This document shows positions 1,889 through 49,832 of a stretch of 64,000 nucleotides of DNA, piece by piece. A model generated the notes under the pieces. The model worked only from the letters and a program-made list of their open reading frames with translations, made no database searches and was not told where the DNA came from. The translations under genes were made by a program, and so were the position numbers. Origin of the DNA: Candidatus Melainabacteria bacterium (GTDB taxonomy: Bacteria; Cyanobacteriota; Vampirovibrionia; Obscuribacterales; Obscuribacteraceae); NCBI GenBank assembly GCA_016212515.1, contig JACRFZ010000030.1, positions 1-64,000 of the forward strand. The letters run 5' to 3'. Within the stretch, counting starts at the first letter, position 1. The number at the start of each line of letters is the position of its first letter.

Positions 1889-3154
1889 TTAGTGCGCCAA
1901 CTCCTTCTCAAGTACCTGAAACCGTTCCGAGAGCAGATCGCAGATATGATCGGCAATGGCTCGCTTGGGCATGCGGGGCAGGCTCTCCCTGGTACCCTCT
2001 GCCGAGAGAATGACAACTGCATTATCGTCGGAACCGAAGCCGATATCCGGCACCGAAATATCGTTACCGACAATCATATCGAGATTTTTACGCTTTAGCT
2101 TGGAAGCGGCATTTGAGAGGAGCGCCTCGGATTCGGCAGCGAAACCGATTATCACCTGATCTTTGCGCTTGACACGACCAAGTAAGTCGATGATATCCGG
2201 ATTCTTGGTCAATTCCAGGACAATGTCTTCCGATTCGGTCTTTTTGATCTTCTGGGCCGAGACCGCTAGCGGTCTGAAATCAGCCACGGCTGCCGTCATG
2301 ACCAGGGCATCGCAACTGTCGAACTCCGCTTCTACGGCTTCCTGCATCTCCTGAGCGGTTTCCACCACAATCACGGGATAGGCCCGCTCCACATCCACTG
2401 TGGAGATGAGGGTGACATCGGCACCCCGACTGTAAGCGGAATCGGCCATGGCAATTCCCATTTTTCCGGAGGAACGGTTGCCGATGAAGCGCACAGGATC
2501 GATGGGCTCCCTGGTACCGCCGGCCGTGACCAAAACGCGTTTGGTGGAAAGGGTCTGGTGGGCTAAAAGCCTGGCGGCCACTGCCGCGATAATTGACTCC
2601 ACGGCAGCCATTTTTCCCAGCCCGACATCGCCGCAGGCCACTTCCCCGTACTCCGGTGCCACGATATCGTAGCGGTAGCGATTCTCAAGAATGGAAAGAT
2701 TGTGCTGGGTAGCCGGATGCTGCAACATGACCGGATTCATGGCCGGTGCAATCATCACTTTCGCCTGGGAAGCCAACACCATGGTAGTCAACAAATCGTC
2801 GCAGATACCAGTGGCCAGCTTGGCAATAATGTCGGCAGTGGCCGGCGCGATAAGAATCAAGTCGCATTTCTTGGCCAGATCGATGTGCTCGGGGCGCCAG
2901 TCGGCCGTGGGTCCGTACTGCTCGCAATGGGTCTGATTGCGGGTGATGGTGGTGAGAGAAAGGGGAGTAATGAATTCCCGGGCATTGGGCGTCAAAACCG
3001 CGTGCACACTGGCACCGGAGCGCCTCAGCAGGGAGGCGATGTCGCAAGCTTTGTAAGCGGCAATGCCGCCGCTCACACCGAGCAAAATGGTTTTGTTCTC
3101 AAGTGGATTGAAGGACTCGAAATTGCTTCCGCGCTTCTTGGAACCCTTTTTCAT
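1889..3154 (-). CDS. coaBC: Bifunctional phosphopantothenoylcysteine decarboxylase / phosphopantothenate-cysteine ligase
   Basis: Carries out two steps of coenzyme A synthesis: ligation of cysteine to 4'-phosphopantothenate (CoaB half), then FMN-dependent decarboxylation (CoaC half). The N-terminal flavoprotein half shows GVSGGIAAYK, EHIDLAK with the catalytic His, APAMNPVM and the substrate-binding ACGDVGLGKM. The C-terminal ligase half shows LVTAGGTREPIDPVR, IGNRSSGKMG and the KIKK motif. The length is normal for the fusion. GGAGAGG supports ATG at 3154 (9-nt spacing) or the ATG at 3160; a GTG further upstream is less likely. It is divergent from metG. Confidence 0.96.
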   Translation of the reverse strand: MKKGSKKRGSNFESFNPLENKTILLGVSGGIAAYKACDIASLLRRSGASVHAVLTPNAREFITPLSLTTITRNQTHCEQYGPTADWRPEHIDLAKKCDLILIAPATADIIAKLATGICDDLLTTMVLASQAKVMIAPAMNPVMLQHPATQHNLSILENRYRYDIVAPEYGEVACGDVGLGKMAAVESIIAAVAARLLAHQTLSTKRVLVTAGGTREPIDPVRFIGNRSSGKMGIAMADSAYSRGADVTLISTVDVERAYPVIVVETAQEMQEAVEAEFDSCDALVMTAAVADFRPLAVSAQKIKKTESEDIVLELTKNPDIIDLLGRVKRKDQVIIGFAAESEALLSNAASKLKRKNLDMIVGNDISVPDIGFGSDDNAVVILSAEGTRESLPRMPKRAIADHICDLLSERFQVLEKELAH

Positions 3155-3212
3155 TTTCATATGCCTCTCCAAAACCACCTTACAAAGAGATAGCCCCGGC
3201 CAAATAACCTTA

Positions 3213-46385: not shown

Positions 46386-49346
46386 ATGTTCAGAATGAAA
46401 TTCCGAAGCAACATTGTAGGAATTGGCGCTCTTGTCGTGGGAGCCCTTCTGACCGGCTCCATGCAGTTCAATCCCATGTTCGACGGCAAAGAATTCCTCT
46501 ATGACCTGCCGGCAATGTACGTGGCTCCCGGCATCATTGCCGTACCCTTTCTATTTGCTCTGGCCCATTACCGCTCCTGCCCGGCAGTGCAGCAGTTCAG
46601 CGCCTTTCTGGTAACGGCATCCTTTATCAGCTTGCTCGGTCTCGTGGGTAATTTCACCCCCGAGAAAATGGTTCTTATCAAAGAAAACTGGCTATTGCAC
46701 TTCAACGTCATCCAGCTTTCCTGTATCAATATTGCCGCCATCATTGCCGCCATGAAGATCATGGCCATCGAGCAAATGAGCAGTTTTGCCGATACAAAAG
46801 TGGCTGAGGCTCAGCTTGGCCGTCTCAAACAGGCGAAAGTCGATCCGGACGTGCAGGCTAAATGGGAGAAGGCTGCCTCCCACGCTGAGAAACACACTGA
46901 GGGACGCTCCCTGCGCTCCACCATGACCAATCTGAAAGCAATCAGCCTTTCAGATCCCTCGCAAGAACTTAAACCCACTGTCACGGGCGACAAGAAGGCC
47001 AAAGAAGCCGATCTGTCTGCTCAAGAAGCCGGCTCCCTGGCCAGCCTCCTCGACCGTATCGGCGAAGAACCGGCCCCGGTGGCAGGCGAAGACCTCGATA
47101 TGAGCCCCGTCAAGGAAGCAGTAGCGAAAGAAGCCGAAACCGTAGAACCCCAGAAGGCCGTTGCCGCTCCCGACGAAAAAGAAATCGTCAGAAGCGATGA
47201 TTTTGTGCCGCCTTCCGGCGTTGACGCTCCCGCTGACTCCTTCCTTTCCAAGTTTCTAGACCGGGAAGATGAGGAAGAGGGCGAAAAAGAAACAAAAGCC
47301 GACTCCAAAACGGAAACGGCCTCAAGCCCACCCGGGGCCAATTTCCGCTTCACCTCCCAGTCGACCAAGAGCGAACCGGCGCCCTCCCAGGCGGTGGTCA
47401 GTAAGCCGGAAACACCGGCCGCTAAAGTGGAGGCTTCACCGGCTCCAGCCCCGGCTCCAGCCCCGCCAGTGGAAGAGACTCAGACCCCGAGTTCCACGGT
47501 CAACCGCATGCAGGCCATGAAGCGCCGCAACACCAGTACCTTCACCAAGTTACAATCACTCTCCGCCAGCGGCAGCGAGTCGCTTCTGCCCACCAAAGAA
47601 GAAACCGTCGAACAGGAAGCAGACAGCCTCAAGAGCTTACTGGACCGCCTCGATGAAGAGAAGCCGGTCGCTAAGGAAGAAGAGGCGGCACCGGCCGCCC
47701 CGGTCAAACAGCCCCTGGAGGCCGCTTACGAACTGACCTTAGATTACCTGTTCCAGGGCGATGCCGCCGTCAAAGAAAAAACGGAAGAAGTCTCGGAAAA
47801 GGCAGAGAGCAAAGGTCGCAGTTCGGTGAGCGAGCGCCTGGCCCAGAGCGAAGCCCCGGGCATGCAAGCACTTTTAGACCAAAAAGAAGCGGAAAAAGAA
47901 GCGGAAAAAGTAGCGCAAGAGGAGGCTGAGCAAGAAGCTGAAGCCGCCAAATCGCCGGAAGAGAAAGCCAGCGAAACCGGTGACGAACCGGTGGTGGAAG
48001 CGCCCGCAGAAGAAGCGGAAGAAGAAGAGAGTGCACCTCTCTTTGAAGGCGGCGTCGACTCCGACATAGACAATATCTTCAATACTCTGGCACCACCGGA
48101 AGCCCAGAGGGAAGTAGACCGGGAAGCGACAAAGGGAGCAGATACCGGCGAGGAAGAGCCTGCCGAAGACGAAGAAGAACGCAGCACTCTCTTTGAAGGT
48201 GGTGTGGACTCCGACATTGACAGTATTTTCTCCAGCCTGGCACCGGCCGAAGCCCAGTTGGAAGTGAAAGACTTGCTCAAGAAGCCGGAACCGAAAGAAG
48301 AAGTAAAAGCGCCGGAAGCAGTCATAGAAGCCAGCAAAGAAGAAGAGCCGGACTCTGAGGAAGAAGAGCGCGGTGCACTCTTTGCCGGCGGCGTCGATTC
48401 TGATATAGACGATATTTTCTCAAACCTGGCACCGGCAGAAGTGCAGCGCGAAGTGAAAGACGTGCTGCCTGCAGCCAAAGAGAAGAAGGCAGAAAGACCG
48501 GCTATCAACACCGAAAGCGAAGCGGAGGGCGACGGTCTCTTCGGCGAGAGCCTGGGCGAAGACCTGGACAACATCTTCTCCAGTCTCACGGAAACCGAGC
48601 AAAAGGAAGTCAGCCCGGAAACTCTTTCTCAGGTAAAACAGAAAGATTCCACCGAGAAGATCGACATGACACCGCCGGTGAAGGCGGAAGAGAAAGCCCC
48701 GGAAACTGCCAAAGAACCGGTCAAAGAACCGGCAAAAGAGGCAGCCAAGGAAGCACCGAAGGAGCCGGCCAAGGAAGCTTCGAAATACAAGGAAGTAAAA
48801 GAGTTCGGCCGTCTTTCCGGTCGTTCGGCGGCGGCGCCGAAAACCTCGGGCGACAGTGTCGGCACCATGAAGACCATCGGCAAACTGTTGCTTGATGTGA
48901 CCGCCGTAGAAAACATCATCAAGGCCGGCGAAACCAAGAAAATCGGCAGCGGTCTATCTACTGCAAAAGTGATCAGCGCAGCCCGTGGTGAAGGTATAAG
49001 AAACATACTTACTACCATCGATACCTATGAAGGTGTGGCCGGCAGCTTGATCGTCGGACACGACGGTCTGGTGATAGCCTCCACCGTGGGGCAAGGCTGG
49101 GACAAGGACATGCTCGGCGCACTCTCTACCGCCTTGCTCTCCACCTCCAACCTGGCTACCAAGAAACTGGAAATCGGTAAACTCAGGCAGATGGTAATGC
49201 TTACGAAGGTCAATGAAAACGACTTCAGGACCACTGTCTTGACCGATGTGGAAGTCGGCATTCTGGCGGTCTTCATCGAGAAAACCGACCTGACGAAAAT
49301 CGACGGCTTGCTGGAGTCTATCCACAAAACCATACACGGAGGTTAG
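46386..49346 (+). CDS. Membrane-anchored Roadblock/LC7-domain protein with acidic repeat linker
   Basis: A 986-residue protein in three parts. Residues 1-130 carry about four hydrophobic helices (near 8-28, 46-62, 71-90, 106-126). Residues about 130-850 are a long acidic, Glu/Lys/Pro/Ala-rich, probably disordered linker with two LLDR motifs (221-224 and 418-421) and four copies of an LF-GG-DSDID-IF motif (starting 552, 602, 665, 718). Residues about 860-986 match the Roadblock/LC7 fold (GEGIRNILTTIDTYEGVAGS, LIVGHDGLVIAST). Such domains bind small GTPases of the MglA/Rag type (MglB is one). No GTPase is in the window. bcp follows 3 bp after the stop. Confidence 0.85.
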   Translation: MFRMKFRSNIVGIGALVVGALLTGSMQFNPMFDGKEFLYDLPAMYVAPGIIAVPFLFALAHYRSCPAVQQFSAFLVTASFISLLGLVGNFTPEKMVLIKENWLLHFNVIQLSCINIAAIIAAMKIMAIEQMSSFADTKVAEAQLGRLKQAKVDPDVQAKWEKAASHAEKHTEGRSLRSTMTNLKAISLSDPSQELKPTVTGDKKAKEADLSAQEAGSLASLLDRIGEEPAPVAGEDLDMSPVKEAVAKEAETVEPQKAVAAPDEKEIVRSDDFVPPSGVDAPADSFLSKFLDREDEEEGEKETKADSKTETASSPPGANFRFTSQSTKSEPAPSQAVVSKPETPAAKVEASPAPAPAPAPPVEETQTPSSTVNRMQAMKRRNTSTFTKLQSLSASGSESLLPTKEETVEQEADSLKSLLDRLDEEKPVAKEEEAAPAAPVKQPLEAAYELTLDYLFQGDAAVKEKTEEVSEKAESKGRSSVSERLAQSEAPGMQALLDQKEAEKEAEKVAQEEAEQEAEAAKSPEEKASETGDEPVVEAPAEEAEEEESAPLFEGGVDSDIDNIFNTLAPPEAQREVDREATKGADTGEEEPAEDEEERSTLFEGGVDSDIDSIFSSLAPAEAQLEVKDLLKKPEPKEEVKAPEAVIEASKEEEPDSEEEERGALFAGGVDSDIDDIFSNLAPAEVQREVKDVLPAAKEKKAERPAINTESEAEGDGLFGESLGEDLDNIFSSLTETEQKEVSPETLSQVKQKDSTEKIDMTPPVKAEEKAPETAKEPVKEPAKEAAKEAPKEPAKEASKYKEVKEFGRLSGRSAAAPKTSGDSVGTMKTIGKLLLDVTAVENIIKAGETKKIGSGLSTAKVISAARGEGIRNILTTIDTYEGVAGSLIVGHDGLVIASTVGQGWDKDMLGALSTALLSTSNLATKKLEIGKLRQMVMLTKVNENDFRTTVLTDVEVGILAVFIEKTDLTKIDGLLESIHKTIHGG
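48039..48611 (+). repeat. Four degenerate copies of a 25-26-residue motif within the Roadblock protein
   Basis: Copies start at residues 552, 602, 665 and 718. The pattern is L-F-x-G-G-V-D-S-D-I-D-x-I-F-x-x-L-A-P-x-E-x-Q-x-E-V; the fourth copy is looser (LFGESLGEDLDNIF). Spacings are 50, 63 and 53 residues, separated by acidic low-complexity sequence. These look like repeated short binding peptides. Confidence 0.85.
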
Positions 49347-49349
49347 ATT

Positions 49350-49832
49350 GTGACTTCTCCTAAGATTCAGGGGCCGGTTGCCGCGGGCGAAACAGCACCG
49401 GAATTCACCCTAAAATATCATCAAGCCGGTAAGGTCGGAGAAGTGAGCCTCAAGGACTACCGGGGCAAAAAGAACGTCATCCTGGCTTTCTATCCCAAGG
49501 ACGACACACCGGGTTGCACCAAAGAAATGTGCGCCTTCTCCGAGGATATGTCGCAGTTTGCGGAGGCTCAGACCGAGCTACTGGGCATCTCTTGCGATAA
49601 CCTGGAAAGACACGAGAAGTTTTCGGGCAAATACAACCTCAAACAGATACTTCTAGCCGATGAAGACGGTAATGTTGGCAGAGCCTACGGCACCGTGCAG
49701 GAAGGCAGGGCGAATGCCTCCAGAGTGCTCTTCATCATCGACAAGGCCGGCGTGGTCAGGCATGTCATCGAAGGCATGCCTAAGAATGAAGAGTTGCTCA
49801 GTCTTGTGGTGAACTTGAACAAGGCTGGTTAA
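49350..49832 (+). CDS. bcp: Thioredoxin-dependent peroxiredoxin (Bcp/PrxQ)
   Basis: Reduces hydrogen and organic peroxides, with electrons from thioredoxin. The 160 residues contain the peroxidatic Cys56 and resolving Cys61 in TPGCTKEMC, the PrxQ arrangement. FYPKDDTPGCT, LLGISCDNLERHEKF and RVLFIIDKAGVVRHV complete the fold. Start is GTG at 49350 with GGAGG 7 nt upstream, inside the end of the Roadblock gene, so both are probably cotranscribed. It overlaps the convergent dsbD-like gene by 4 bp. Confidence 0.97.
   Translation: MTSPKIQGPVAAGETAPEFTLKYHQAGKVGEVSLKDYRGKKNVILAFYPKDDTPGCTKEMCAFSEDMSQFAEAQTELLGISCDNLERHEKFSGKYNLKQILLADEDGNVGRAYGTVQEGRANASRVLFIIDKAGVVRHVIEGMPKNEELLSLVVNLNKAG

Follow-up and report, generated by a model that had tools for sequence, protein, structure and literature searches.

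Architecture of a long membrane protein with a C-terminal Roadblock domain

The Roadblock proteins of bacteria are mostly known as small, soluble proteins that regulate MglA. In the window, the 64,000-nucleotide stretch of DNA analyzed here, which comes from a non-photosynthetic and little-known cyanobacterial group, a Roadblock domain ends a protein of 986 residues, and this raises the question of what such a domain does on a long membrane-anchored chain and which partners it would serve. The ORF at positions 46386-49346 (all coordinates in the window are on the + strand) is intact and real, and it combines a membrane anchor, an acidic linker with predicted docking motifs and a Roadblock head. 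Of the 194 class genomes, 53 have an orthologue, and these fall into two families of the order Obscuribacterales; the relatives are from Candidatus Obscuribacter and other Obscuribacterales MAGs. No NCBIfam family matched the protein.

An earlier note, made from the sequence of the window, had proposed about four N-terminal membrane helices. Both hydropathy and the AF2 model place four hydrophobic helices in residues 1-130 (46386-46775), at residues 10-28, 43-61, 67-89 and 108-125, and this domain was modelled with a pLDDT of about 70-93. From the positive N-terminus and the even number of helices we infer that the N-terminus and the C-terminal part are both cytoplasmic. A full-length fold search for relatives of the membrane domain returned, at E 0.001 or better, only Roadblock-related chains.

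The membrane domain is followed by juxtamembrane helices (residues 137-169, 46794-46892; AF2), which are kept among close relatives. The linker, described before as acidic and about 700 residues long, carries a net charge of -80 over the 670 residues from 131 to 800, contains 17% Glu and is mostly modelled with pLDDT < 50. Two LLDR motifs had been reported in it and are indeed present, at residue 221 within SLASLLDRIGEEP (47034-47072) and at residue 418 within SLKSLLDRLDEEK (47625-47663). The second of these and a linker box, STVNRMQAMKRRNTSTFTKLQSLSASG (residues 370-396, 47493-47573), each show a mean identity of 70% in homologues, compared to 15-29% for the linker between conserved islands (18 homologues).

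The Roadblock head resembles archaeal and eukaryotic Roadblock proteins

That the C-terminus is a Roadblock/LC7 domain, as had been suggested, is supported alike by Pfam, by a profile search and by the AF2 fold (residues 865-985, 48978-49340). Robl_LC7 (PF03259) matched residues 877-941 with an E-value of 2.3e-5 and 24.5 bits, above the cut-off of 23, scored 29.2 bits in a genome-wide search, and was the only Pfam domain found in the protein. In the AF2 model the head has the canonical order helix-strand-strand-helix-strand-strand-strand-helix, with a pLDDT of 86-91 over most of the domain. The structural comparison with MglB and LAMTOR that the earlier note called for gave matches (Foldseek), with TMt values of about 0.75 to MglB and 0.78 to LAMTOR2, and a TMt of 0.85 with an rmsd of 1.3-1.4 was obtained for Asgard Roadblock3.

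A head profile built from 31 C-termini was searched against the PDB and found an Asgard archaeal Roadblock first (7f8m, 1e-12), followed by CvnB5, dynein roadblock and LAMTOR2. MglB was absent among the 41 PDB hits of this profile at E up to 1, so that a GAP function of the MglB type need not be assumed for the head. The Asgard archaeal proteins (9jue, 7yh1, 7f8m) are thus the nearest solved relatives of the head by both sequence and fold, but their structures are of short stand-alone chains. Among MglB homologues gathered by BLAST, almost all have a single domain and 129-179 residues (PMC4316618). Neither this length nor sequence similarity to MglB was found here, whereas MglA is encoded in the genome; judged on length and sequence, the 986-residue protein is a member of the Roadblock superfamily and not an MglB.

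The Roadblock domain has a mean identity of 75% among 18 homologues and is preceded by a conserved lead-in, EFGRLS...TIGKLLLD..AVENIIK (48792-48935), with a mean identity of 72% in the alignment. In several genera, two Roadblock modules are found in a single chain, which is possibly a built-in Roadblock pair; the tree of these members is too weak to separate one duplication from two. Such double-Roadblock homologues (L052, L053, L054, L055 and L056) have few or no copies of the linker motif described below.

The linker carries repeated motifs that are conserved in type and not in number

Four copies of a 26-residue motif were identified in the linker by motif search, AF2 and repeat comparison: LFEGGVDSDIDNIFNTLAPPEAQREV (48039-48116), LFEGGVDSDIDSIFSSLAPAEAQLEV (48189-48266), LFAGGVDSDIDDIFSNLAPAEVQREV (48378-48455) and a divergent fourth, LFGESLGEDLDNIFSSLTETEQKEVS (48537-48614). 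The starts given for them previously, at residues 552, 602, 665 and 718, are all exact. The description as near-identical holds for copies 1-3, which share 20-21 of 26 residues (77-81%), and not for copy 4, which shares 9-10 of 26 (35-38%). The consensus is LF..G.D.DID.IF..LAP.EA..EV, in which L and F positions are invariant. When the linker was compared with itself, the best 26-mer match scored 105, whereas 100 shuffles reached at most 54.

Between copies 1-3, identical residues are spelled with different codons in 7 of 21, 7 of 20 and 9 of 21 cases; with a third or more of them recoded, the repeats are not recent DNA duplications. Motifs 2-4 form conserved islands with mean identities of 50-62% (18 homologues), and motif 1 is weaker (26% mean identity) because the copy number varies. 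The AF2 model shows a local island of helix at each of the four motifs; inspected for secondary structure and confidence, it gave no sign of a motif docking on the head.

Among homologues the copy number ranges from 0 to 6, and in 14 of the 53 order genomes, some of which are incomplete, no motif of this form was detectable at E 0.01; the array is therefore not essential to the family. The earlier note had made conservation of the four motifs its test; among the homologues the type of motif is kept, but a fixed number of four copies is not supported. This variation, together with several orthologues that have no copy at all, would suit motifs that are mere spacers or self-association elements without a specific outside partner, the protein then being a tethered Roadblock regulator. 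Such a role is very improbable, as the motifs show sequence-specific conservation within a diverging linker, synonymous divergence between copies, and occurrence in unrelated proteins (see below).

The motif core D-x-[ED]-[IV]-D-x-[IL]-[FL] appears to resemble two receiver-binding peptides, the N-terminal peptide of FliM (SQxEIDALL) and the C-terminal helix of CheZ (QVDDLLDSL). By this putative likeness, the peptides could dock a CheY-like receiver domain and so make the protein a scaffold controlled by a phospho-signal, the Roadblock head then being an output of its own. In addition, RomR, which regulates MglA in Myxococcus, contains a receiver domain (PMC4316618). However, a search of the motif profile against PDB chains of at least 20 residues gave nothing meaningful, and receiver domains are common whereas the motif is restricted to few proteins of one order. 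Docking of a receiver domain is the main rival to docking within an MglA module, and we consider it unlikely.

The motif also occurs in an anti-sigma-like paralogue and in other proteins

A motif model, built without rows from the paralogue described here, matched the 986-residue protein in 39 of the 53 order genomes. Its sole other match in these genomes was a marginal one to a 1732-residue ORF that ends in a Roadblock domain, and a sample of 385 other genomes of Cyanobacteriota gave no match at all. Another long Roadblock protein of this genome (contig C3, L040:8272-12852), with relatives at L077-L082, L089 and L090, carries one to three copies of a second form of the motif, LFNLDDNAIDKIF..NLGV. 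The lead-in before the Roadblock domain is also present in this paralogue, as GVGRL...IGKFLLD.

The gene for the paralogue directly follows a Sigma70_r4 gene on contig C3. A homologue of the sigma gene was found at all of its other loci (8/8), in tandem and with short gaps where both coordinates are given. In several genera the paralogue begins with HLETCESC(AKF), reminiscent of an anti-sigma zinc finger, for which zf-HC2 matches stay below the cut-off (0.0015-0.047); the finger cysteines are lost in the genus of the window. From its sequence and gene context, the paralogue is apparently a Roadblock-bearing anti-sigma factor.

These findings, and the motif type and lead-in common to both proteins, could also point to a control of transcription in which the 986-residue protein and its paralogue would be competitors for a single sigma factor or for its regulators, by membrane sequestration or partner switching, and MglA would take part indirectly. 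The 986-residue protein, however, has neither an anti-sigma domain nor a sigma gene nearby, and the finger is degenerate in the window's own genus; we regard this competition as quite improbable. A broader and doubtful form of the docking hypothesis is that the order-specific peptide LF..D..ID.IF marks out a network of interactions around the MglA and Roadblock proteins of Obscuribacterales. It would recruit a shared hub both to the membrane platform and to the Roadblock-bearing anti-sigma factor, and would thereby couple a Ras-like GTPase switch at the membrane to transcription.

Further proteins carry the motif in other settings. A third architecture (L099, minus strand, 309 residues) consists of a zinc-ribbon, the motif and a Roadblock-like C-terminus. 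Genome G142 has the motif in two proteins in which no Roadblock domain was detected. One, of 713 residues, carries it in a stretch that looks flexible (L095, minus strand, about 3145-3210); the other, a double zinc-ribbon protein of 147 residues (L096:2530-2970), has it at the C-terminus and may be a truncated relative. The occurrence in varied architectures, including these two without a detected Roadblock domain, suggests a common partner in trans. That the motifs are displayed as binding peptides, as the earlier note proposed, is supported indirectly by this occurrence in G142, by the conserved islands and by the helical islands of the AF2 model.

DUF4388 (PATAN-like) genes were observed at two of the loci concerned: one is conserved beside the paralogue (L040:4711-6612), and another, with a degenerate GGDEF, adjoins the second mglA (L065:8840-10528). 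In one relative of the paralogue (L079:6751-11952, residues 1055-1077), one motif matched, below the Pfam threshold (E 0.099), the acidic activation region of a viral transactivator; convergence between acidic amphipathic sequences is the most likely cause.

MglA GTPases are encoded elsewhere in the same genomes

The partner GTPase had been expected away from the locus, and two MglA genes are indeed present in the genome, on contigs C90 and C94. The encoded proteins of 192-195 residues were found by an Arf-family search, and both match PDB structures of MglA at 1e-67 to 1e-77. Neither gene is adjacent to that of the 986-residue protein. A search with Roc (PF08477) gave as its best match an initiation-factor-2-like translation GTPase, which was rejected as a Roadblock partner. 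The genome also encodes a stand-alone Roadblock protein of 125 residues.

MglA was detected in 50 of the 194 class genomes, all of them Obscuribacterales, and the three order members in which it was not detected are 65-82% complete. Robl_LC7 was found in 54 of the 194, namely all 53 genomes of the order and one outside it, in which MglA was not detected. The shared distribution of MglA and the 986-residue protein agrees with a functional link, but as statistics it is not strong, since one clade amounts to one evolutionary event; a single ancestral acquisition could possibly account for it. PilT was also considered as a discriminating correlate and set aside, as its presence in 193 of the 194 class genomes indicates nothing specific.

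A membrane-anchored Roadblock scaffold is proposed

Combining these results, we propose, with about an even chance of being right, that the 986-residue protein is a membrane-anchored Roadblock scaffold whose acidic peptides dock a shared partner of the Obscuribacterales MglA module. Anchored in the cytoplasmic membrane by its four transmembrane helices, the protein would extend its Roadblock head into the cytoplasm on an acidic, disordered tether about 700 residues long. The short amphipathic helices of this tether, which are acidic, would dock the putative partner, most likely the positively charged groove of a Roadblock dimer, or else MglA in complex with such a dimer. Candidates for this dimer would be the protein's own head, presumed to dimerize, the 125-residue stand-alone Roadblock protein, or the anti-sigma-like paralogue. 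With several motifs in tandem, binding would gain in avidity and the regulation of MglA would be focused at the membrane, with a presumed effect on GTP hydrolysis and a presumed biological output. Of the membrane platform suggested by the earlier note, the anchor, the disordered acidic tether, the C-terminal Roadblock head and the GTPase gene elsewhere all stand, and the fixed set of four copies does not.

The proposed docking, of the motif on a Roadblock dimer or on an MglA-Roadblock complex, is modelled on RomR, whose helix 371-420, with W394 as a critical residue, occupies a positively charged cleft in the interface of the MglC dimer (PMC12719032). Both cases have an acidic helical peptide in a flexible tail within an MglA/Roadblock system (PMC12719032). 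RomR, however, combines a receiver domain with just one docking helix. Here, four predicted docking peptides occur together with a membrane anchor and, in the same chain, a Roadblock domain, and Pfam found no N-terminal receiver domain, Robl_LC7 being its only match.

With the MglB/MglA systems of Myxococcus xanthus and Thermus the protein shares the Roadblock fold and the presence of MglA genes, two in this genome, but here the head ends a long membrane protein with a peptide array and lies away from mglA. In the Streptomyces conservons, a small CvnB is encoded in a four-gene operon with the histidine kinase-like CvnA. The combination of a Roadblock protein with an MglA-like GTPase (CvnB/CvnD) in membrane-linked signalling is similar, and CvnB5 was among the hits of the head profile (3leq, E 4e-6); to our knowledge, no docking-peptide array has been described in conservons.

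Eukaryotic Ragulator consists of LAMTOR1/p18 with LAMTOR2-5, and its LAMTOR1 is a lipid-anchored, separate subunit. Ragulator-like features are found here in the membrane-tethered flexible chain with a Roadblock domain and in the fold match to LAMTOR2, and the Ras-like GTPase MglA, encoded in the genome, may be the partner. Here, however, a single fused polytopic chain is present, and the homology is at the level of the Roadblock domain only. By analogy, the protein may work like a fused Ragulator, acting as LAMTOR1 and LAMTOR2 in one chain, or like a RomR-type scaffold, and so may be a bacterial counterpart of the eukaryotic membrane platforms that control GTPases. If so, bacteria would have built multivalent GTPase platforms with a Ragulator-like logic, possibly tied to transcription, and the anti-sigma-like sister protein, which also ends in a Roadblock domain, would be part of the same significance. 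As the peptide is short and conserved, its partner could be sought by one peptide pull-down.

The gene is part of a conserved block

The downstream gene encodes a peroxiredoxin of the Bcp/AhpC type (49350-49832), which lies outside the proposed mechanism. Its GTG start is located 4 bases past the stop codon of the 986-residue ORF, and a GGAGG sequence lies within the final codons of this ORF, so that the two are probably coupled in translation in this genome. A scan for promoters and terminators gave nothing above chance. The pair is kept at 18 other loci, with wider gaps in several. The surrounding genes are housekeeping genes and give no functional link between the two, and within a conserved block the peroxiredoxin seems to be just an ordinary neighbour. 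Across genera, the order pheS-pheT-[986-residue gene]-bcp-dsbD is kept (gene names as read from the sequences). This order favours orthology and argues against a binning artefact.
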